Below, one piece after another: positions 21,456 through 59,047 of a DNA stretch of 64,000 nucleotides (position 1 is the stretch's first letter; every line of letters starts with the position of its first letter). Below the pieces are notes generated by a model. The model saw only the letters and a program-made list of their open reading frames with translations, did no database searches and was not told the DNA's origin. Made by a program: the position numbers and the translations under genes. The stretch is from contig NZ_KB903247.1 in assembly GCF_000379625.1 (NCBI RefSeq), positions 124,001 to 188,000 on the forward strand, written 5' to 3'. Source of the stretch: Actinomycetospora chiangmaiensis DSM 45062 (GTDB lineage Bacteria > Actinomycetota > Actinomycetes > Mycobacteriales > Pseudonocardiaceae).

Positions 21456-22357
21456 CGGAACGACCTCCGCAGTCGCTGCAGGGGCGTGGGCGGCAACGTC
21501 CGCTCCGCTCCGCGCGCGTAGTACCGCTCCACGTAGTACTGCCCGACGGAGAGGATCGACGTCAGGATCACGTACCAGACCGTTGCGACCAGCAAGAGCG
21601 GGATGATCTCGTAGGTGCGGTCGTAGATCGTCTGCACCGAGTACAGCAGGTCCGTCACGGCGATGACCGAGACGATCGAGGTGCCCTTGAGCGTCCCGAT
21701 CACCATGTTGCCGGTGGCCGGGATGATCGAGCGCATCGCCTGGGGGAGCACGATCCGCCGGAGCACCCGGGCGCGGGTCATGCCCAGCGACACCGCCGCC
21801 TCGGACTGGCCGGCGTCGACCGACAGGATGCCGCCGCGCACGATCTCCGCCGCGTACGCCGCCTCGTGCAGGATCAGCCCCAGCAGGGCCGCGACGAGGA
21901 CGCTGACCAGGTTCACCGAGTCGATCGAGAAGAACGTCGGCCCGAACGGGATCCCGAGCGAGAGCTTCGGGTACAGCGCGCCGATGTTGTACCAGAACAG
22001 CAGCTGCACCAGCAGCGGCGTCGAGCGGAACAGCCACACGTAGCCCCAGCTGACCGACGACAGCACGGGGTTGCCGGACAGTCGCATCGCCGCGAGCCCG
22101 ATGCCCAGCAGGAACCCGAGGACCGTCGTCGCGACCGTGAGCAGCAGCGTCGTGGCCAGGCCGTGCAGCACCGCCGTCGTGAACAGGTACTGCGCGACGG
22201 TGCCCCAGCCGAACGCCGGGTTCAGCGCCACCGAGCGCAGCGCCCAGACGACGAGGACGACCACGAGCGCGGCCCACACCCAGCGCCCGACGTGGCGGGA
22301 GCGGACGGTGCGGGGCGGGGACCCGGGGGGCGCTTCGGGGGCAGCGAGGGACGTCAT
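21452..22357 (-). CDS. Amino acid ABC transporter permease (His/Glu/Gln/Arg/opine family)
   Basis: A 301-residue inner-membrane permease with about six hydrophobic segments. The EAA-type loop (EAAVSLGMTRARVLRRIVLPQA) contacts the ATPase, and the N-terminal GLATTLLLTVATTVLG pattern is that of HisMQ permeases. I use ATG 22357 with cggag upstream rather than GTG 22375. It is divergent from the matching lipoprotein binding-protein gene (start 22679), so the three genes form one transporter split over two strands. The cystine/TcyL-like assignment is contextual. Confidence 0.9.
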   Translation of the reverse strand: MTSLAAPEAPPGSPPRTVRSRHVGRWVWAALVVVLVVWALRSVALNPAFGWGTVAQYLFTTAVLHGLATTLLLTVATTVLGFLLGIGLAAMRLSGNPVLSSVSWGYVWLFRSTPLLVQLLFWYNIGALYPKLSLGIPFGPTFFSIDSVNLVSVLVAALLGLILHEAAYAAEIVRGGILSVDAGQSEAAVSLGMTRARVLRRIVLPQAMRSIIPATGNMVIGTLKGTSIVSVIAVTDLLYSVQTIYDRTYEIIPLLLVATVWYVILTSILSVGQYYVERYYARGAERTLPPTPLQRLRRSFR

Positions 22358-22423
22358 CGGATCACTCCGGTACACGGGGCTTCACGGGAACGCCGGCGTC
22401 CCTCAACGCAGACGACTCCGACC

Positions 22424-22450
22424 GTACGTCGGTGACCCGGAGGCGTCGAA
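22424..22450. promoter_or_regulatory. Motif shared with the yeiH promoter region
   Basis: Read on the minus strand, ttcgacgcctccgggtc followed by acgtac matches 61380-61405 at about 21 of 27 positions. Both lie upstream of transporter genes. Possibly a regulator site or a short peptide relic. Confidence 0.3.
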
Positions 22451-22474
22451 TCGGGCGGACGCCGTCACAGCCTG

Positions 22475-22504
22475 CTTGACCATGTCGGGTCCGGGTGGTT
22501 CTGT
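22475..22504 (+). promoter_or_regulatory. Promoter for a leaderless leader ORF
   Basis: TTGACC, 17-nt spacer and TTCTGT, followed by 7 nt and the ATG of the leader at 22512. The spacing predicts transcription starting at or next to the start codon. Confidence 0.55.
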
Positions 22505-22511
22505 CGGTTGC

Positions 22512-22586
22512 ATGGCACCCGGCGGCACGCTGATCACGCGTGAGCACGTCGACCTGTGCCGTGTCTGGTCCGCGGCCTGTCGCTGA
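22512..22586 (+). CDS. Cys-containing leader peptide of the RRxHVDL family (upstream of ABC binding protein)
   Basis: A 24-residue ORF ending ITREHVDLCRVWSAACR then stop. It has the family core (basic pair, HVDL, RV, SAxCR) with two Cys codons. A TTGACC-N17-TTCTGT promoter places the start of the transcript at the ATG, with no ribosome binding site. It lies 92 bp upstream of the lipoprotein gene. Actinobacterial sulfur genes are known to carry such short attenuating ORFs, so cysteine-responsive control is likely but not shown. Confidence 0.8.
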   Translation: MAPGGTLITREHVDLCRVWSAACR

Positions 22587-22678
22587 GCGAGTCGCTCACC
22601 GCCGTCCCGGGCCCGCCCCTCGTCGCCTCACCGCGTCGGGCCCGCGCACGGTTCCGCTCCCTCCGTGACAGGACCGCC

Positions 22679-23581
22679 ATGCCCCGCGCCGTGCTGCTGG
22701 CCGTGCTCGCCGTCGTCGGCGCGCTGCTCGCTGGCTGCGCGTCCCCGCTCGACGACGCCGACGCCGGTGTCCCGCGCGAGGACGTGACCTCGGTGGTCAC
22801 CGTCGACCCGGCGGTGCGGGCGCTGCTGCCCGCGGCGGTCGCGCAGGCCGGCGTGCTGTCGGTCGGGGCGAGCATCTCGGCCCCACCGACCGCGTTCACG
22901 CTCGCCGACGGGGTCACGACGACGGGTCAGGACATCGACATGACCGAGGCCGTCGCCCGGACGCTGGGCCTGCGGGTCCAGCGCACCGAGTCGACGTTCG
23001 ACGGCATCGTCCCGGGCCTGACCAGCGGGAAGTTCGACGTCGGCACCGGCAACTTCGCCGTGACCGAGGCCCGCAAGAAGCAGGTCAGCTTCGTCACCTA
23101 CATCAACGACGGCCAGGCCTTCGCCGTGCGCGCGGACGACCCCCAGCCGCCGATCACCGACCTCGTCCAGCTCTGCGGCCGCACCGTCTCGGTGCTGACC
23201 GGCTCCACCTTCGAATCCACCCTCGCCCAGGCCCAGCCGCGATGTCGTCGGGCGGGCCGACCGGACATCGAGGTCCGCAGCTACCCCGACGGCGCGACGA
23301 CGGGTCTCGCGCTCGCCCAGCGGCGCGCCGACGTCACGATGAGCACGATCAACGGCCTGCGCTACCTCGTGTCCCAGCAGCCGCGGCTGCGGTTCGTCAA
23401 CGAGTACCGCCGGCTCGACGTCGGGTTCGCCCTCGCGAAGGACTCCCCGCTGATCCCGGCCGTGCAGGCCGCCGTCGCCACCCTCATGGCCGACGGCACC
23501 TATGCCCGGATCCTCGCCAAGTGGGGCACCTCGCCGTCCGCGCTGCGCACCTCCCAGGTCGACCCGCCCGAACCGGCCTGA
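22679..23581 (+). CDS. ABC transporter substrate-binding lipoprotein (amino acid family)
   Basis: A 300-residue periplasmic-type binding protein anchored as a lipoprotein. The signal peptide is followed by the lipobox LLAGC (Cys near residue 20), then the type II SBP pattern (GVTTTGQDIDMTEAVARTLG, GLTSGKFDVGTGNFAVTEARK). It would capture a polar amino acid and hand it to the divergently encoded permease and ATPase. It follows leader peptide 22512-22586. A cystine or S-modified cysteine ligand fits the context but cannot be read from sequence. Confidence 0.88.
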   Translation: MPRAVLLAVLAVVGALLAGCASPLDDADAGVPREDVTSVVTVDPAVRALLPAAVAQAGVLSVGASISAPPTAFTLADGVTTTGQDIDMTEAVARTLGLRVQRTESTFDGIVPGLTSGKFDVGTGNFAVTEARKKQVSFVTYINDGQAFAVRADDPQPPITDLVQLCGRTVSVLTGSTFESTLAQAQPRCRRAGRPDIEVRSYPDGATTGLALAQRRADVTMSTINGLRYLVSQQPRLRFVNEYRRLDVGFALAKDSPLIPAVQAAVATLMADGTYARILAKWGTSPSALRTSQVDPPEPA

Positions 23582-23614
23582 CCTCCCCGAACACCTCGTA
23601 CCCAGGAGACACCT

Positions 23615-23815
23615 GTGCCCTTCACCCCCCGCGGCGCCGCCGTGGCCACGTTCCTCACCCATCTCGACGCCGTCGTCCAGCGCGAGGTCTCGGCGGTCGA
23701 CGCCGGCGCCGGCCGCTGGGAGATCGAGGCCGAGCGCATCGCGGCCGAGGTGGCCGGATCACTGGCGCTGCTGCGCACGGAGCTGCAGCGCCACCGCACC
23801 GCCTTCGCCGAGTGA
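23615..23815 (+). CDS. Small hypothetical helical protein
   Basis: A 66-residue soluble, mostly helical protein starting at GTG 23615 with cccaggag upstream. I do not recognise the family. It follows the binding-protein gene by 33 bp and is probably co-transcribed. The C-terminal half (EIEAERIAAEVAGSLALLRT) is strongly amphipathic. A second small helical protein (59103-59450) also follows a leader peptide further along the island. Confidence 0.55.
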   Translation: MPFTPRGAAVATFLTHLDAVVQREVSAVDAGAGRWEIEAERIAAEVAGSLALLRTELQRHRTAFAE

Positions 23816-23881
23816 CCCGTCCGGTCGCACTGGTCCGTCGGGGTCACCCGCATCACGTCGGTGGCCCCCACGGACGGGTCA
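23813..23881. terminator. Possible terminator / long-loop inverted repeat
   Basis: Perfect 11-bp arms tgacccgtccg / cggacgggtca separated by 47 nt, at the end of the small ORF and before the next leader. A weak terminator candidate because of the long loop. Confidence 0.35.
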
Positions 23882-23898
23882 TGGCAGGCTTACCGTCC

Positions 23899-23985
23899 AT
23901 GACCTCCGCGGCCGACGTGCGCCTCGTGGCCCGTCGTCACGTGGACTACGGCCGCGTCTACAGCTGCGCCTGTCTCTCCTCCTGA
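23899..23985 (+). CDS. Cys-containing leader peptide (upstream of ssuABC)
   Basis: A 28-residue ORF with core VARRHVDYGRVYSCACLSS then stop; it has two Cys codons two positions apart. It has no clear ribosome binding site and ends 127 bp before the ssuA-like gene. The HVD codons differ synonymously from those of other family members, which points to selection on the peptide. Confidence 0.8.
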   Translation: MTSAADVRLVARRHVDYGRVYSCACLSS

Positions 23986-24112
23986 CGCACCCCGTTCCGC
24001 CCCTGCCGTCCCGCTGCGTGACGGCGGGCCGAACGCGGGTCCAGCGCGCCGGTCCACCCGTCAGTCGACCTCGCCGCCCCGAGGCGAGGCCTCCTCAGGA
24101 GAACCACCACCC

Positions 24113-25192
24113 GTGACCCGCCACCGTCGGCGCACCCTGCCCGCCGTCGTCATCGCCCTCGTCGTCGCAGCGCTGGCTCTCGCCGGCTGCTCCCGAGCCC
24201 AGGAGTCCTCGAGCACGCCCGCCGCGGACCAGGGCCCCGCCCAGCAGCTGCGCCTGGGGTACTTCCCCAACATCACCCACGCCGGCGCGCTGATCGGCGT
24301 GCAGAACGGTCTGTTCGCCCAGCAGCTGGGCCAGACCAAGCTCTCCACCCAGACGTTCAACGCCGGGCCGGAGGAGACGAGCGCCCTGCTCGGCAACTCC
24401 ATCGACATCGGCTTCATCGGCTCGGGTCCGGCGATCAACGCCTACAAGCAGAACCCCGACGGCATCCGCCTCATCTCCGGGGCGACCTCGGGCGGGGCGC
24501 AGCTCGTGGTCCGGCCGGGCATCACCAGCCCGCAGCAGCTCCTCGGCAAGAAGATCGCCACCCCGCAGCTCGCGAACACGCAGGACATCGCGCTGAAGAA
24601 GTGGCTCAAGCAGAACAACCTGCCGACGGGCACCGGCCCGGGCGCCGTCGAGGTGGTCAACATCGACAACGCGCGGGCGCTCGACGCCTACAAGACCGGC
24701 CAGCTCGACGGCGGGTGGCTGCCGGAGCCGTTCGCGTCGCGGTTCGTGCTGGAGGCGGGGGCGACCCCGTTGGTGGACGAGAAGACGCTGTGGCCGAACG
24801 GCCAGTTCCCGACCACGGTGGTCATCGCCCGCACCGACTACGTGCAGCAGCACCCCGCCACCGTCGCCGCGTTCCTCAAGGGCCTCGTGGCCGCCGAGAA
24901 CCTGTCGCAGACCGACCCGAACGCGGCGAAGGCCGCCGCCAACGCCGGGCTCGGCGCGTCGGGCAGCAAGCCGCTCGCGCAGAACGTGCTCGACCGGGCG
25001 TGGAGCGAGGTCGCGCTCAACCCCGACCCGCTCGCCTCGACGTTCCCGCAGCTGGCGCAGGACGCCGTGACGGCGGGAACCGCCCAGTCGGCCACGAACG
25101 TCAAGGGGCTCTTCGACCTCGGCCCGCTCAACCAGGCGCTGCAGGCCGCCGGCCGACCGACGGTCGACCCGGCCGGTCTCGACACCAAGTAG
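24113..25192 (+). CDS. ssuA: Sulfonate/nitrate/taurine-type ABC transporter substrate-binding lipoprotein
   Basis: A 359-residue lipoprotein: signal peptide with lipobox ALAGC (Cys near 24), then the SsuA/TauA-like core (LRLGYFPNITHAGALIG, TFNAGPEETSALLGNSIDIGFIGSGPAINAY, KKIATPQLANTQD). It would bind an organosulfonate or related sulfur compound outside the membrane. It starts at GTG 24113 with ggag upstream. It heads the ssuABC set and follows leader peptide 23899-23985. Nitrate or pyrimidine binders share this fold, but the linked cysC and LLM genes favour sulfur compounds. Confidence 0.88.
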   Translation: MTRHRRRTLPAVVIALVVAALALAGCSRAQESSSTPAADQGPAQQLRLGYFPNITHAGALIGVQNGLFAQQLGQTKLSTQTFNAGPEETSALLGNSIDIGFIGSGPAINAYKQNPDGIRLISGATSGGAQLVVRPGITSPQQLLGKKIATPQLANTQDIALKKWLKQNNLPTGTGPGAVEVVNIDNARALDAYKTGQLDGGWLPEPFASRFVLEAGATPLVDEKTLWPNGQFPTTVVIARTDYVQQHPATVAAFLKGLVAAENLSQTDPNAAKAAANAGLGASGSKPLAQNVLDRAWSEVALNPDPLASTFPQLAQDAVTAGTAQSATNVKGLFDLGPLNQALQAAGRPTVDPAGLDTK

Positions 25193-25215
25193 TTCCCCAG
25201 GAAGGGACTCCCACC

Positions 25216-26019
25216 ATGACCGCCACGCTCGAGCGCCACGCCCCGGAACCGCGCACCGGCCCGCCCGCCCTGGACGTCCGTGGGGTGTCCAAGGTCTTCG
25301 GCAGCGGGGAGGACGCCGTCGTGGCCCTCGACGGGGTCGACCTGTCGGTCGCGCCGGGGGAGTTCGTGTGCCTCCTCGGCGCGTCGGGCTGTGGCAAGTC
25401 GACGCTGTTGAACCTCGTCGCGGGGCTCGACCGGCCGACCAGCGGCACGGTCGAGACCACCGCGGCGCGGCCGGCGGTGATGTTCCAGGAGGCGGCGCTG
25501 CTGCCGTGGCTCGACGCGGGCCGCAACGTCGAGCTGCCGCTGCGCCTCGCCGGCATCGGCCGCGCGCAGCGGCGGGAGCGGGCCCGCGAGCTGCTCGCGC
25601 TGGTGCGGCTGGAGGGCCAGGCGGCGAAGCGGCCGCACGAGCTCTCGGGCGGCATGCGCCAGCGCGTGGCCCTGGCCCGGGCCCTCGCGGCGGCGACCGG
25701 CCTGGGTGGGGAGGGGAAGAGTCGCGAGGAGGCGGGCGTCCTGCTCATGGACGAGCCCTTCGGTGCGCTCGACGCGATCACCCGGGACGTGCTGCAGGCC
25801 GAGCTGCTGCGGGTCTGGGAGGCGACCGGCACCACGGTGCTGTTCGTGACCCACGACGTGCGGGAGTCGGTCCGGCTCGCCGAGCGCGTGGTGCTCCTGT
25901 CGTCCCGGCCAGGGCGCGTGGTCCGCGAGTGGGCCACCTCCACCGCCGACGACGCCGAGGAGCTGCACGGCGACATCACCGGTGAGCTGCGCGAGGTGAT
26001 CTCCGCCCATGGCCGCTGA
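25216..26019 (+). CDS. ssuB: Sulfonate-type ABC transporter ATP-binding protein
   Basis: A 267-residue ABC ATPase. It has Walker A GASGCGKST near 57, MFQEAALLPWLDAGRNVELPL, signature LSGGMRQRVALARAL, Walker B VLLMDEPFGALDAITRD and switch FVTHDVRE. These are the diagnostic motifs of the SsuB/TauB/NrtD group. An insert rich in Gly/Glu (GLGGEGKSREEAG) sits between the signature and Walker B, unusual but surface-exposed in this family. It is 23 bp after ssuA, and its end overlaps ssuC by 11 bp. Confidence 0.92.
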   Translation: MTATLERHAPEPRTGPPALDVRGVSKVFGSGEDAVVALDGVDLSVAPGEFVCLLGASGCGKSTLLNLVAGLDRPTSGTVETTAARPAVMFQEAALLPWLDAGRNVELPLRLAGIGRAQRRERARELLALVRLEGQAAKRPHELSGGMRQRVALARALAAATGLGGEGKSREEAGVLLMDEPFGALDAITRDVLQAELLRVWEATGTTVLFVTHDVRESVRLAERVVLLSSRPGRVVREWATSTADDAEELHGDITGELREVISAHGR

Positions 26020-26914
26020 CAGCACGACGACCACGGCGGCGACGGCCGCCACCACCGACGACGACGCCGTCGACCTCGGGCGCGGGCTCGACGCCCTCGA
26101 CACCCCCACCGAGCAGCGCACCCCGCTGTGGAAGCGGCTCCTCACCGGCGTGGTGCCGCCGATCGTGGCGGTGGTGCTCTTCGTGGTGGTCTGGCAGATC
26201 CTCTGGGCCTCGGCGATCTGGCCCGAGTTCAAGCTGCCCTCGCCCGAGGCGGTGTTCGGCACGATCGGCACCGACGTCGCCGACGGCCGGGCGCTGTCGA
26301 TCATCTGGACCTCGATCAGCCGCGCGGTCCTCGGCTTCCTGCTCGCCGTGGTGATCGCGACCCCGATCGGTCTGCTGGTGGCGAGCGTGCCCCTGGTGCG
26401 CTCGGCGATCGGCCCGGTCCTCACCGGGCTGCAGAGCCTGCCGTCGGTGGCGTGGGTCCCGGCGGCGGTGCTGTGGTTCGGCCTGAACGACCAGACGATC
26501 TACTTCGTCGTCCTCATGGGCGCGGTGCCGTCGATCGCGAACGGGCTGGTCTCGGGCATCGAGCAGGTGCCGCCACTGCTGCCGCGGGTCGGGTTCGCGA
26601 TGGGTGCGTCCCGCTCGCAGTCGGCGCGGCTGATCATGCTGCCCGCCGCCCTGCCCGGGTTCCTCGGCGGCCTGAAGCAGGGCTGGGCCTTCGCCTGGCG
26701 CTCGTTGATGGCCGCGGAGATCATCGCGACCTCGCCGAGCCTGGGCTTCGGCCTCGGTGCCTACCTCAACGAGGGGCAGGCGCTGTCCGACATGCCCTCG
26801 GTGATGGCGGCGATCATCCTGATCCTCATCGTCGGGATCGGCGTCGAGCTGCTGTTCTTCCGGCCGGCCGAGCTCCGCGTGCTGCGGGCCCGCGGCCTCG
26901 GGACAGGGCCGTGA
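26009..26914 (+). CDS. ssuC: Sulfonate-type ABC transporter permease
   Basis: A 301-residue inner-membrane permease with six hydrophobic segments after a ~45-residue acidic/Thr-rich N-terminal tail. The motif GFAMGASRSQSARLIMLPAALPGFLGGLKQGWAFAWR-region (EAA-type loop) is typical of SsuC/TauC. It partners with the upstream ATPase and binding protein. The stop codon overlaps the GTG of the next leader peptide, linking it to cysC. Confidence 0.92.
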   Translation: MAADSTTTTAATAATTDDDAVDLGRGLDALDTPTEQRTPLWKRLLTGVVPPIVAVVLFVVVWQILWASAIWPEFKLPSPEAVFGTIGTDVADGRALSIIWTSISRAVLGFLLAVVIATPIGLLVASVPLVRSAIGPVLTGLQSLPSVAWVPAAVLWFGLNDQTIYFVVLMGAVPSIANGLVSGIEQVPPLLPRVGFAMGASRSQSARLIMLPAALPGFLGGLKQGWAFAWRSLMAAEIIATSPSLGFGLGAYLNEGQALSDMPSVMAAIILILIVGIGVELLFFRPAELRVLRARGLGTGP

Positions 26915-26982
26915 GGGTGTCGGTGCTGACGCGTCGGCGGCACGTCGACCACGGGCGGGTGGACAGCGCGCTCTGTCGCTGA
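26911..26982 (+). CDS. Cys-containing leader peptide inside the ssu-cysC operon
   Basis: A 23-residue ORF with core LTRRRHVDHGRVDSALCR then stop. The GTG at 26911 overlaps the ssuC stop by 4 bp (GTGA); GTG 26917 is an alternative start. There is no room for a separate promoter outside ssuC, so it probably acts within a polycistronic mRNA, 36 bp upstream of cysC. Confidence 0.8.
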   Translation: MRVSVLTRRRHVDHGRVDSALCR

Positions 26983-27018
26983 CGGTGCCCCGGGCCCGTC
27001 CGCGAACCAGGAGTCGCC

Positions 27019-27630
27019 ATGTCCTCCGGCCCTGCCGTCCACCCGTCCTCCGTCCCGTGCGCCGGCGGCGCCACCGTCTGGCTGACCGGCCTGCCCAGCG
27101 CCGGCAAGTCGACCGTGGCCGCCGGTGTCGCCGACCGGCTCCGCACCGAGCGGTGCGGCGTCGAGGTGCTCGACGGCGACATCATCCGCACCAACCTCTC
27201 CAAGGGCCTCGGCTACAGCCGCGAGGACCGCGCGGTGAACATCCGCCGCATCGGCTTCGTGTCCGGCCTGCTCGCCCGCAACGGCGTGGTGGTGCTGGTG
27301 GCCTCGATCGCGCCGCACGCCGACGTCCGCGCGCAGGTCCGCAGCGACCACGAGGCGCTCGGCGTGCCCTACGTCGAGGTGCACCTGTCGACGCCGGTCG
27401 AGGTGACCGCGCAGCGCGACGTCAAGGGGCTGTACGCCAAGCACCGGGCCGGCGAGATCACGGGGCTGACCGGTGTCGACGACGCCTACGAGGTCCCCGA
27501 GCGCCCCGACCTCGTCCTGCCCACCCACGAGCAGACGGTCGACGAGTCGGTGGGCGCCCTGCTCGACCACCTCGTCCGGCGCGGGATCCTGTCGCGCGAG
27601 CCCGACCGCCTGACCAAGGAGTCCGCGTGA
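27019..27630 (+). CDS. cysC: Adenylyl-sulfate kinase
   Basis: A 203-residue APS kinase that phosphorylates adenosine 5'-phosphosulfate to PAPS. Walker A GLPSAGKST lies at residues 24-32, then LDGDIIRTNLSKGLGYSREDR with the substrate-binding region, VASIAPHADVRAQVR, and the lid segment DVKGLYAKHRAGEI. The length is normal for a stand-alone CysC. No sulfate adenylyltransferase is in the window. A sulfotransferase two genes downstream suggests that the PAPS is used for sulfation as well as, or instead of, reduction. It is preceded by leader 26911-26982. Confidence 0.95.
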   Translation: MSSGPAVHPSSVPCAGGATVWLTGLPSAGKSTVAAGVADRLRTERCGVEVLDGDIIRTNLSKGLGYSREDRAVNIRRIGFVSGLLARNGVVVLVASIAPHADVRAQVRSDHEALGVPYVEVHLSTPVEVTAQRDVKGLYAKHRAGEITGLTGVDDAYEVPERPDLVLPTHEQTVDESVGALLDHLVRRGILSREPDRLTKESA

Positions 27631-28562
27631 GCCACATCGACCCGACCGGCGCCCCGCTGCCCGACGGCGCCGCGGCGACCGTCGTCGTCCCCCCACCCGA
27701 CGGCCGCCCCGGCACCTGGGCGGGCGCACCGAGCGCCGTGCGCCACGAGGGCGCGGTCTACCTCGCGTACCGGCTGCGCCGGCCGGAGGGGGAGGGGCGC
27801 GGGTACGCCAACGTCGTGGCGCGCTCGGGCGACGGGGTGTCGTTCGAGGTCCTCGCGATCGTCGAGAAGGAGCGGTTCGACGCCGAGTCGCTCGAGCGTC
27901 CCGCGCTGGTGGTCACCCCCGCGGGTCGCTGGCGGCTCTACGTCAGCTGTGCCACACCCGGCACGAAGCACTGGTGGGTCGAGCTGCTCGAGGCCGACAC
28001 CCCCGAGGGGCTCGCGTCCGCGCCGTCGGTGACGGTCCTGCCCGGCTCCGACGAGCTCGCCGTCAAGGACCCCGTGGTGCAGTCCCACGGCGGGCAGTGG
28101 CACCTGTGGGCCTCGGTCCACCCGCTCGACGACCCGGACGCGACCGACCGCATGACCACCGAGTACGCCACCAGCCCCGACGGCGTCGCGTGGACCTGGC
28201 AGGGCACCGCGCTCGCGCCGCGGCCGGGGGAGTGGGACGCGCGCGGGGTCCGCGTCAGCACCGTCGTCGACCTCGGGGACCGGCTCGTCGCCCTCTACGA
28301 CGGCCGCGCGAGCGCGGGGGAGAACTGGGAGGAACGGACCGGGGTCGCCGTCTCCCTTCCTGACGGCGGGTTCGGCCGCTTCCGCGCGGAGGGGTCCGGC
28401 CCGGTGGCGGAGGCCGCCGACGGCGCCGGCCCGGGGCTGCGCTACGTCCACGCGTTGCCGCTGCCGGGCGGGGAGTACCGCCTCTACTACGAGGTGACCC
28501 GGCCCGACGGTGCCCACGAACTGCGGTCCGAAGTCGTGCCGGCCCTGGTGGGGGCGACCTAG
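27627..28562 (+). CDS. Beta-propeller protein, glycoside-hydrolase-like fold, function unknown
   Basis: A 311-residue soluble protein with the repeated blade pattern of five-bladed beta-propellers (GH43/GH32/GH62-like): SAVRHEGAVYLAYRLR, RPALVVTPAGRWRLYVSC, KDPVVQSHGGQWHLWASV, VSTVVDLGDRLVALYDG, GGEYRLYYEVTRPDG. The aspartate in VKDP is where GH43 enzymes carry an active-site acid. No signal peptide is visible. It sits between cysC and a sulfotransferase with start/stop overlaps on both sides, so a role in making or processing a sulfated glycan or metabolite is a reasonable guess only. Confidence 0.7.
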   Translation: MSHIDPTGAPLPDGAAATVVVPPPDGRPGTWAGAPSAVRHEGAVYLAYRLRRPEGEGRGYANVVARSGDGVSFEVLAIVEKERFDAESLERPALVVTPAGRWRLYVSCATPGTKHWWVELLEADTPEGLASAPSVTVLPGSDELAVKDPVVQSHGGQWHLWASVHPLDDPDATDRMTTEYATSPDGVAWTWQGTALAPRPGEWDARGVRVSTVVDLGDRLVALYDGRASAGENWEERTGVAVSLPDGGFGRFRAEGSGPVAEAADGAGPGLRYVHALPLPGGEYRLYYEVTRPDGAHELRSEVVPALVGAT

Positions 28563-29347
28563 TGGCGCTCCCCGACTTCCTGCTCCTCGGCGCCCCGAAG
28601 TGCGGCACGTCCGCCCTGCACAAGGCGCTGCAGGGGCACCCGCAGCTGTTCCTGCCCGAGGTGAAGGAGCCCAAGTTCTTCCTCACCGACGGCCCACCGC
28701 CCACCAGCGGCGGCGGGCCGGGGGACGTGCCCACGTGGGGCGAGCACGTGTGGCGTCGCGCGGACTACGAGGCGCTCTTCGACCCGGCCCCACCCGGGGC
28801 ACTCACCGGCGAGGGCACGGTCTTCTACCTCTACGACACCGACGCCCAGCAGCGCATCAGGGACCTCGTCCCGGACGCGAAGCTGATCGCCGTGCTGCGC
28901 GACCCGGTGGAGCGGGCGCACTCCAACTGGTCGCACCTGCGCGAGGCCGGGCTCGAACCCGAGGCAGACTTCCTCACCGCCTGCCGGCTCGAGGACGAGC
29001 GCCGTGCCGCGGGCTGGGCGCACTTCTGGCACTACGTCGCCCAGGGCCGCTACGGCGATCAGGTCGAGGCGCTGTACTCCCGGTTCGACCCGGAGCAGGT
29101 GCTCCTGCTGCGCTACCGCTCCCTGCGGGACTCCCCGATCTGCACGGCCGACCGCGTCTGCGCGTTCCTCGGCGTGGAGACCGGGGTGGTGCGCGGGGTG
29201 CCGCGCCACCACGTGCGTCCCGACGTGCACGGCCGTTCGGCCGGGCTGTCGCCCGACGAGCGGGCGGAGGCCCTCGGCTGGTTCGCCGACGACGTCGCCC
29301 GCCTCGAGAAGATCACCGGCTGGGACCTCGGCGACTGGCGGAGCTGA
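28562..29347 (+). CDS. PAPS-dependent sulfotransferase
   Basis: A 261-residue sulfotransferase domain protein. The 5'-phosphosulfate loop GAPKCGTSAL is at residues 10-19 and the 3'-phosphate site RDPVERAHSNW near 113. It transfers sulfate from PAPS to a hydroxyl or amine of an unknown acceptor. It starts at GTG 28562, sharing the last base of the previous TAG. Co-transcription with cysC supplies its donor. Similar to the Stf-type enzymes of actinobacteria that sulfate lipids and glycans; the acceptor cannot be inferred. Confidence 0.9.
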   Translation: MALPDFLLLGAPKCGTSALHKALQGHPQLFLPEVKEPKFFLTDGPPPTSGGGPGDVPTWGEHVWRRADYEALFDPAPPGALTGEGTVFYLYDTDAQQRIRDLVPDAKLIAVLRDPVERAHSNWSHLREAGLEPEADFLTACRLEDERRAAGWAHFWHYVAQGRYGDQVEALYSRFDPEQVLLLRYRSLRDSPICTADRVCAFLGVETGVVRGVPRHHVRPDVHGRSAGLSPDERAEALGWFADDVARLEKITGWDLGDWRS

Positions 29348-30668: not shown

Positions 30669-31013
30669 TCACACGAGCGGCGGCCCGGGCGGGTCGCCGG
30701 GCTCGTGGATCAGGGGCGGTCCGATCGCGATCCGCGCTCCCGGTGTGCGGCCCTGCCCCCAGCCGAGGGCGGCGCGGTAGCTCCCCAGCGCCACGTCGGC
30801 CTCGGCGGGCGGGGCGGGCAGCGGCGTGCGCTCGGCCGCCACCCACAGCGCGTCGACCGGGCACCAGGCCTCGCACAGGAAGCAGGTCTGGCAGTCGCCC
30901 TGCCGGGCGATGACGGGGACGGCGCCCGGCACGCGGTCGAAGACGTCGGTGGGACAGACGTCGACGCAGCGGTCGCAGCCGATGCAGCGGTCGGTGGAGA
31001 GCAGCTCGATCAT
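30669..31013 (-). CDS. 4Fe-4S dicluster ferredoxin (AprB-like partner)
   Basis: A 114-residue ferredoxin with two cluster-binding motifs: CIGCDRCVDVCP (Cys 10, 13, 16, 20) and CQTCFLCEAWCP (Cys 41, 44, 47, 51). The ~60-residue tail after the clusters is reminiscent of adenylylsulfate reductase beta subunits and related electron carriers. It overlaps the flavoprotein gene by 4 bp (ATGA) and is almost certainly its electron partner. Confidence 0.88.
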   Translation of the reverse strand: MIELLSTDRCIGCDRCVDVCPTDVFDRVPGAVPVIARQGDCQTCFLCEAWCPVDALWVAAERTPLPAPPAEADVALGSYRAALGWGQGRTPGARIAIGPPLIHEPGDPPGPPLV

Positions 31014-32590
31014 GCGGGAGACGCCGCATCGAGGGGAGCACGCCGATAGGGGAGCTCGACCGATGAGGGGGTCCGGAACCACACGTCGTCGAGCCCGCCG
31101 ACCGCGATCCGACGCTGCCAGGCCGGGTCGGTCCCCGGACGGTCCTCGCGCTTGTGCATCCCGCGCGACTCCTCCCGCGCCAGGGCCGCCGTGTACATCC
31201 AGCGCGCGACCGCGGTCATCGCGGTGGCCTCGCGGACCCGCCACGACCCGCCGTCGAGACCCGCGCGGACCGTGTCCCACACGCCGTCGAGCCGTTCCAG
31301 CGCGGGGCGGAGCCGGTCGCCGTGGCGGATCAGGTTGATGTCATAGGGCAGCACCTCGGCCTGCACGGCCGCCACCACGTCCCGGGCAGGGGTCCTTCCG
31401 GATGGGACGGGACCCGCACCTGTCGTCGGGAAGGGCCTGCCGTGGGCGTGGGCGTGCGCGGCCGCCGCGCGCCCGGCCCAGCTCCCCGAGGACAGCGCCC
31501 AGGCGGCGTTGTGGCTGCCACCGCCGGTGAAGCCGCCGCAGATGTCCTCGCGGCTGGCGGCGTCGCCCGCGGCGTAGAGGCCGGGGACGCCCGTGGCGCA
31601 GTCCGTCCCGGCGAGCGCGATGCCGCCGGTCCCGCGGACCGTGCCCTCGGCGACCAGGGTGATCTCGAAGAGGTCGCGGAACGGGTCGATGCCCGCGCGG
31701 TCGAAGGGCAGGAAGAAGTTGGGCTGGCCCCGGCGCATCGCGACCTGCTCGGCGGGGCCGGCGTGGTCGAGGCGGCAGAGCACCGGCTCGTCGAGCAGGG
31801 TGCGGGCGATGACCGACCGGCCCCGGGTGCTGCCCGCGCCCTCCAGGACCGTGCCGTCGGCGCGGTAGAAGCTCGCGTAGCTGTAGTAGGCGGTCTTCGT
31901 CACGGTGCTGTGCGCCGGCGCGATCGCGTAGGCGTTGGAGAACTCCATGCCCGAGAGGTGCGCGCCGACCTCCGCGGCCGCCAGCGCGCCGTCGCCGGTG
32001 TCGACGTCGCAGCCCAGGGCGCCGCTGCCGAAGGCGCAGCCTCCGGTCGCGAGCACCACCGCGCCCGCCCGCACGCGGTAGTCCACGCCTTCCTGACGAC
32101 GGGTCCCCGCGGCTCCCGCCACGACGCCGTCGGACGTCGTGAGCAGTCCCGTGAGGGGGGAGTGGTCGAGGATGCGTACGCCCGCGCGTCGGACGAGCGT
32201 CCGCATCCGGCGCATGTACTCCGGTCCCTGGACACCGCGACGGATCTCGCGGCCCTCGTCGTCGCGGGGGAAGGGGTAGCGACCGCGGTCGGCCAGCTCG
32301 TTGACGCCCGCATACGTCTCGTCGAGCACGCGCGCCATCCAGCCGCGGTCCGAGAGGTAGCCGCCCAGGCCCTCGCGCGAGGCCATGGCCGTCTCGCGGG
32401 CCTCGGCGTCCGGCTCGACGTACCAGACGCTGGTGCCCGAGGCGGCGGTCGCGCCGCTCGCCCCGCACCAGCCCTTGTCGACGAGCACCACGTCGGCGCC
32501 CGCGTCCGCGGCCCGCAGGGCGGCCCAGGTCCCGGCGGGGCCGCCGCCGGCGACCAGGACGTCGGTGTCGAGCTCGAGCACGCCGATCAC
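31010..32590 (-). CDS. FAD-binding flavoprotein (fumarate reductase / adenylylsulfate reductase alpha-like)
   Basis: A 526-residue flavoprotein of the SdhA/FrdA/AprA superfamily. The N-terminal dinucleotide site is AGGGPAGTWAALRAA (residues 14-28), with a central FAD/capping domain and the C-terminal FAD loop GLYAAGDAASREDICGGFTGGG near 370. With the 4Fe-4S partner encoded downstream it resembles AprAB. It lies in a sulfur-scavenging island without sulfate adenylyltransferase or CysH genes nearby, so the substrate may be APS or an organosulfur oxide. It probably starts at GTG 32590; no Shine-Dalgarno is seen. Divergent from an LLM monooxygenase. Confidence 0.85.
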   Translation of the reverse strand: MIGVLELDTDVLVAGGGPAGTWAALRAADAGADVVLVDKGWCGASGATAASGTSVWYVEPDAEARETAMASREGLGGYLSDRGWMARVLDETYAGVNELADRGRYPFPRDDEGREIRRGVQGPEYMRRMRTLVRRAGVRILDHSPLTGLLTTSDGVVAGAAGTRRQEGVDYRVRAGAVVLATGGCAFGSGALGCDVDTGDGALAAAEVGAHLSGMEFSNAYAIAPAHSTVTKTAYYSYASFYRADGTVLEGAGSTRGRSVIARTLLDEPVLCRLDHAGPAEQVAMRRGQPNFFLPFDRAGIDPFRDLFEITLVAEGTVRGTGGIALAGTDCATGVPGLYAAGDAASREDICGGFTGGGSHNAAWALSSGSWAGRAAAAHAHAHGRPFPTTGAGPVPSGRTPARDVVAAVQAEVLPYDINLIRHGDRLRPALERLDGVWDTVRAGLDGGSWRVREATAMTAVARWMYTAALAREESRGMHKREDRPGTDPAWQRRIAVGGLDDVWFRTPSSVELPYRRAPLDAASPA

Positions 32591-32656
32591 GCTACGGGTG
32601 CCCGGGCGCGGCCGCCCGGCTTGCCCCTCGGACCGCCGCGGCCGAGACTCGGGCAG

Positions 32657-32725
32657 GTGCCCGCCCGCCTCGAGCCGTTCTGGCCCTCGCGGCGCGGGCA
32701 CGCGTTCGACGAGCACTGTCGCTGA
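32657..32725 (+). CDS. Possible degenerate leader peptide upstream of an LLM gene
   Basis: A 22-residue frame ending PFWPSRRGHAFDEHCR then stop. Ser-Arg-Arg, the His and Asp spacing, and the CR-stop ending echo the leader family, but the HVDL core is not intact. It lies 53 bp upstream of the LLM gene at 32779. It may be a diverged leader or coincidence. Confidence 0.4.
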   Translation: MPARLEPFWPSRRGHAFDEHCR

Positions 32726-32778
32726 GGTCGCCCGCTCCTCGCCGCCAGATCGCCGTCGACGCATCCCCCGGGAGAACC

Positions 32779-58631: not shown

Positions 58632-58733
58632 TCAGCCCGGACAGACCGCGCTCGCGACCCGCTGCAGGTCGACGTGGCGGCGGTAGCTCCCGCGGTGCTC
58701 ACAGCGCAGGACGACGTCCCGGTCCGTGCGCAT
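58632..58733 (-). CDS. Cys-containing leader peptide (upstream of the LLM-ABC operon)
   Basis: A 33-residue ORF whose C-terminal core is GSYRRHVDLQRVASAVCPG, then stop. It has an additional Cys near residue 11 in a longer N-terminal part. The promoter is not clear. It lies just before the LLM-B gene. Confidence 0.76.
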   Translation of the reverse strand: MRTDRDVVLRCEHRGSYRRHVDLQRVASAVCPG

Positions 58734-58963
58734 GGGTCCTCCATCGGTCCTGGCATGAGCACCCTCGCCCGCGGGATGCGGGGGGTTGCTGCGGCGTCAG
58801 GGAGCCAGGTCTCTCGGCCGCTCGGGATGGCTACGAAGGACTCTATGGAGTCGGACCCGTGATCTGTCAACCGTCCTCGGCCCACAGCGGAGCAGGTCAC
58901 TCACGCTCGGTGAGGACCCGGTGCTCTGGTGATCGAGGGACCGCCCGTGTCAGAGTGGTCGTC
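58734..58963. other. Divergent promoter region between two leader ORFs
   Basis: A 230-bp gap between leaders pointing left and right. No operator palindrome, terminator or gene seen. Confidence 0.5.
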
Positions 58964-59047
58964 GTGACGGGACCCGGATCGCGACTCGTGCGCCGCACGT
59001 ACGTCGATCTGCTGCGCGTCGTCTCCGCGGGGTGTCGGGCGAGCTGA
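58964..59047 (+). CDS. Cys-containing leader peptide (upstream of a small hypothetical gene)
   Basis: A 27-residue ORF with core RLVRRTYVDLLRVVSAGCRA then Ser and TGA. Tyr replaces the core His. A CAGAGT hexamer ends 7 nt before the GTG. It lies 55 bp upstream of the small ORF at 59103. Confidence 0.76.
   Translation: MTGPGSRLVRRTYVDLLRVVSAGCRAS

Follow-up and report, generated by a model that had tools for sequence, protein, structure and literature searches.

Between ssuC and cysC, inside a sulfonate operon of Actinomycetospora, lies a short open reading frame which is best understood as an internal, translationally coupled, cysteine-sensing leader (attenuator), probably fed by termination-reinitiation from ssuC and freeing cysC when a ribosome pauses on it; the probability of this reading is put at about 0.55. 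The window analysed comprises 64,000 nucleotides and is a part of the Actinomycetospora genome G000 (5.86 Mb); the operon occupies its plus strand in the order ssuA-ssuB-ssuC-leader-cysC-GH-sulfotransferase. The upstream genes ssuA (24113-25192) and ssuB (25216-26019) were named from profile matches and are followed by an ssuC-type sulfonate ABC permease (26009-26914; PF00528), an orthologue of which is present in 8 of 18 genus genomes. Three separate genes stand behind the leader: the adenylylsulfate (APS) kinase gene cysC (27019-27630; PF01583, E 2.3e-54; TIGR00455 above cut-off), a gene for a weakly GH32-like protein which accompanies cysC by synteny (27627-28562; PF00251 at 21.4 bits, just under the cut-off of 22.1) and a sulfotransferase gene (28562-29347; PF00685, PF13469). 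In front of ssuA there is another leader, Ms4527A-like and encoding MTSAADVRLVARRHVDYGRVYSCACLSS (23899-23985, plus strand), and the hairpin directly after its stop (23986-24045) is conserved in 8 genomes (loci L047, L048 and L050-L054), where two-sided changes stay paired; on account of this covarying hairpin the operon seems to own a front switch.

Amino-acid leader peptides are usually regarded as 5'-end devices, and cysteine leader ORFs, thought to sense cysteine, normally stand at operon fronts. The internal leader encodes 23 residues (MRVSVLTRRRHVDHGRVDSALCR) from a GTG at 26911-26913 to a TGA stop at 26980-26982 (26911-26982, plus strand). The ssuC stop is the TGA at 26912-26914, and the two frames have GTGA at 26911-26914 in common, so the 4-bp overlap given in the initial annotation is exact in the sequence. 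This GTGA is proposed as the termination-reinitiation site, a layout shared with cysN/leader junctions described below. From the leader stop to the cysC ATG at 27019 there is a gap of 36 nt. The frame has one Cys codon, a TGT at 26974-26976, and no Cys run; the bias towards TGT at C-terminal leader Cys codons makes it the proposed sensing codon. The window contains five short ORFs closed by the strict motif R.H[VIL]D..R..C and not one of 60 dinucleotide shuffles contains any, hence its presence is not attributable to chance. The frame also carries, near its end, the RRHVDxxR...C core of NF042934-type leaders; since it scores 17.0 bits in the profile search against a cut-off of 27, it is treated as a relative and not as a filed member of that family. 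Its ssuC-type genus orthologues and a copy between cysN and cysC fall under the same cut-off (16.1-20.0 bits). Matches to NF042934 occur in all 18 Actinomycetospora genomes, each of which has one or more above the cut-off; at E <= 1e-4 they occur in 131 of 197 class genomes. A search of the whole window with Rfam gave no family above its gathering score at the leader; SAM-IV and SAM only were found, elsewhere.

The nearest known systems are like and unlike this leader in several respects. NF042934, a cis_reg_atten family of a 'putative leader peptide', has in common with it the L.RRRHVDxxRxxSAxCR motif, the place before sulfur genes and many copies in the same genome; the differences are its score, its location inside an operon and its overlap with an upstream stop. 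Against the profiles of the Cys-rich leaders Ms4527A and Ms5788A (NF042936, NF042933) it scores under the cut-off of 45 in each case. In M. smegmatis, polycysteine leaderless attenuators reportedly (Canestrari 2020) rely on a pairing of the uORF with the RBS, which a paused ribosome frees. With these and with Ms4527A/Ms5788A the internal leader shares the form of a short ORF that has a Cys codon towards its end and precedes cys or sulfur genes, here an APS kinase gene, and possibly also the proposed masking of an RBS. It is unlike them in that it is not first in its operon, has a single TGT in place of a Cys run and appears not to be leaderless, given the ssuC overlap and the missing -10 box. 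Translation attenuation of M. smegmatis cys genes is described in PMC13236596, and Cys leader peptides upstream of mycobacterial cys operons in PMC1262725; the latter resemble the internal leader as short ORFs with Cys near the stop and without a terminator hairpin, and differ by their position upstream of the operon and their Cys runs. The literature consulted also includes PMC8079986 and PMC9094748. The searches made of open-licence papers turned up no account of a cysteine leader inside an operon.

It had been suggested initially that the leader is probably carried on the polycistronic ssu mRNA and not at a transcript 5' end, and this gains indirect support, for the internal copies are without a leaderless -10 and the layout recurs behind cysN. 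The five internal copies scored (5/5) have neither TANNNT nor the looser [TC][AT]NNNT at a distance of 4-9 nt upstream of any start, and two further copies are likewise without a -10, namely that behind ssuC in G098, judged by eye as it lies outside the pattern of the count, and that of G118, examined separately. The alternative is a leaderless or short-leader transcript that begins inside ssuC, in which case the frame would be an ordinary 5' leader. Such an arrangement is common at gene ends elsewhere: of the class leaders near the end of an upstream gene, TANNNT precedes a start by 6-7 nt in 15 of 18. This box was found at 46 of the 101 other class leaders, and at 6 when the position was shifted as a control. 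The missing boxes in the five scored copies make such an independent promoter distinctly improbable here, and a promoter of unrecognised type inside ssuC may, as far as sequence can tell, drive the leader. Other leaders of the genus (94) have TANNNT in 9 cases (controls 1, 0 and 2) and the looser box in 56 (controls 22, 11 and 16). A sigma-70 scan of positions 22300-27700 returned no promoter and no plus-strand terminator; the scan is not counted as evidence of a missing promoter because the promoters of ordinary leaders were also missed.

The class survey yielded 119 leaders in 107 of 110 loci with a leader pattern widened to take in the AVD branch of the family; the loci, 30 together with 80 of the places listed after them, came from the best-scoring end of a ranked list, so that low-scoring internal leaders such as the present one may be under-sampled. 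Among these 119 leaders none both overlapped an upstream stop and was clearly without its own -10. Three Streptomyces-type leaders without a strict TANNNT start 32-47 nt past the stop and have an in-frame start at -4 as well. In 296 class genomes the combination of GTGA and the motif was matched 10 times, once in the own genome, and the other nine matches were never at the stop of an upstream gene. With seven Actinomycetospora loci against none that is clear among the 119 class leaders, the description of the arrangement as an unusual intra-operonic use holds in this sample. A leader in G155 (contig C2; L097, 366, minus strand) whose start lies at -4 to an open frame was judged ambiguous and not counted as internal, related leaders carrying, by eye, a common upstream promoter-like box.

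Within the genus this ssuC is present in 8 of 18 genomes and is followed by the leader in four of the eight: G000, G135, G098 (A. termitidis) and G075. The GTG overlaps the ssuC stop in G098 and G075 as well; the ssuC stop of G135 stands in the context CTGA, and the sole start codon there is a GTG 3 nt past this stop. The other four vary. In G155 (TBRC 11914) cysC follows ssuC directly, which provides a natural leader-less junction, and leader and cysC are both absent behind ssuC in G042, G152 and G156. G075 has lost the cysC module and kept the leader; the deletions in G075 (L051, 8217-8310) and G042 (L050) take out this module between ssuC and the end of the next small gene. Behind cysN the order cysN/GTGA leader/cysC was found in two genomes, G157, whose sequence is that of MAG L108, and G118 (A. 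chibensis), the leader of the latter being without a stop and reading past the cysC start. A separate internal case, cysN/GTGA leader/tauE, occurs in G098 and at 31.6 bits lies over the NF042934 cut-off of 27. No leader stands behind cysN in 15 of the 18 genus genomes, nor after cysN in 24 loci of other Pseudonocardiaceae genera, nor before the cysC of a Pseudonocardia MAG (L110), which is divergent from ssuABC. Five of six inspected genus copies of the cysC-GH-sulfotransferase module, behind ssuC or cysN, have a leader immediately before cysC, a count which leaves out the second cysC match of G098. The comparison supports the internal leader, as a stop-coupled leader recurs behind ssuC and, separately, behind cysN.

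Conservation bears on whether the frame is still in use. G135 and G075 do not differ at all in the 54-nt leader core (LTRRRHVDHGRVDSALCR), at a synonymous difference (pS) of 0.30 in ssuC; between G000 and G135 the core shows 3 synonymous and no non-synonymous changes, and G098 adds 1 synonymous and 2 non-synonymous changes, in a comparison of four sequences only, where identity could also result from gene conversion. A relic of operon fusion without present function would fit the leader that outlasts cysC in G075, the lost stop in G118 and the absence of the leader from TBRC 11914, but in view of the identical core it is scarcely probable at all. Codon choice is also biased. Of 129 Cys codons that follow HVDxxR in 100 genus leaders, 80 are TGT; the 24 coding-like ORFs taken from the window for comparison have 8 of 50, and at the Cys position within HVDxC the figure is 1 of 24; in the class sample the figures are 144 of 244 for C-terminal Cys codons, 11 of 94 for the background and 3 of 55 for the HVDxC Cys. 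TGT is a rare Cys codon, yet it is preferred at the C-terminal Cys of these leaders, with a P value that is indicative only since the sequences are related. The conserved peptide core and TGT codon, together with the AGGAG owned by cysC, speak against the idea that the short ORF is no more than a bridge, by which re-initiating ribosomes pass from ssuC to cysC, and senses no cysteine. Re-initiation from short leader genes has been proposed to raise translation, according to PMC4833913; the same paper gives a peak at 10-11 nt, compared with the 36-nt gap before cysC, and this bridging role is considered very unlikely.

It is proposed that ribosomes which end ssuC on the polycistronic ssuABC mRNA would terminate at the TGA, re-initiate at the overlapping GTG and translate the 23-codon ORF, whose penultimate sense codon is UGU (Cys). 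When charged tRNA-Cys is scarce a ribosome would pause at this UGU, as the family suggests, and the pause would most likely open a pairing of the VDSALC codons with the cysC Shine-Dalgarno (SD) sequence and start region, by which the cysC-GH-sulfotransferase module would become translatable. With ample cysteine the pairing would re-form and cysC would be held down independently of ssuABC. The ssuA leader would then be the first switch of the operon and the ssuC-cysC leader the second, and it is plausible that cysC expression would be decoupled from sulfonate import. Several features count against this reading, namely the leader kept without cysC in G075, the stop lost in G118 and the shifted start in G135; the single Cys codon and the scores of the peptide and its genus orthologues under the family cut-offs count against it as well.

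In the RNAalifold consensus, built from three ssuC-type junctions, the SD of cysC (AGGAG, 27009-27013) is paired with CUCU of the Leu-Cys codons (26971-26974) and the start region (UGUCC, 27020-27024) with GGACA, so that the leader stretch GGACA...CUCU (26961-26974, plus strand) would mask both. This consensus is weak and not significant against shuffles (column-shuffled alignment, z -1.39; 28 of 300 shuffles equally good). Single-sequence folds were no better than shuffles, with z from -1.60 to -0.62 in G000 and G135 and of +0.66 and +0.75 in G098, and the masking did not exceed that of synonymous recodings (P 0.10 in G000, 0.88 in G135, where it was below expectation, and 0.11 in G098). A simulated ribosome parked at the Cys codon relieved 6.1 kcal/mol in G000 (P 0.05), 3.9 in G118 (P 0.04) and 5.8 in the tauE case of G098 (P 0.01), and 1.2 in G135 (P 0.27), 0.9 at ssuC in G098 (P 0.34) and 0.2 in G157 (P 0.44). 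The models are thus suggestive of stall relief in the first three, with the effect absent or weak in the others. As the folding statistics are weak, the output step at cysC after the pause is one that we infer.

The opposite sign of control has to be weighed here. A UGU pause under cysteine starvation would then lower cysC, through lost coupling and exposure to Rho, and sulfation would stop at the same time as the front leader switches on the scavenging of sulfonates, saving APS for reduction to cysteine. The own-genome CysH has CC, CxxC and ECGLHG motifs, which presumably mark an APS reductase, and CysC would on that account be dispensable for assimilation; cysN is present in 18 of 18 genus genomes and cysC in 4 of the 6 searched for it, and no intrinsic terminator is seen on the plus strand. 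The folding, so far as it is informative, points to a pause that opens cysC, and the mycobacterial leaders described in PMC13236596 are pause-on, so the opposite sign is held to be rather unlikely.

If the pause-opened internal leader is accepted, one message would obtain a second cysteine switch. It is possible, rather than probable, that in Actinomycetospora a cysteine-sensing leader has been relocated from transcript 5' ends to junctions between genes, where termination-reinitiation from the preceding gene feeds it. This would give two cysteine checkpoints per mRNA, the second gating either a sulfite exporter or the cysC-sulfotransferase branch of sulfation apart from uptake or APS synthesis, possibly with opposite sign. 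Should the internal form recur and need the ribosomes of the preceding gene, an operon could be divided, with no second promoter, into blocks that are tuned separately. Natural junctions with a leader, without one and with a changed neighbour are available in the genus.

Leaders of the NF042934 type are clustered in this region, with six candidates in the window between 22539 and 58682; many of the 24 matches of the own genome (E up to 10) fall within 146-202 kb of contig C30, accompanied by LLM monooxygenases, ABC importers and cysN/cysH. On the minus strand, at 58632-58833, a leader ORF (33.3 bits, NF042934) comes directly after a SAM riboswitch (RF00162) and before a gene named by eye as an LLM-type monooxygenase, so that riboswitch and leader stand in tandem. 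Divergent from this unit, at 58960-59047 on the plus strand, a possible further leader with TYVD replacing HVD closes an open frame (ending in RLVRRTYVDLLRVVSAGCRAS). At 30669-32764 on the minus strand a ferredoxin-like protein (by eye) and an FAD flavoprotein form a pair beside an NtaA/DmoA-type monooxygenase; the flavoprotein matches fumarate reductase/L-aspartate oxidase profiles and, weakly, those of APS reductase alpha, and two such pairs are present in G155 and G152.
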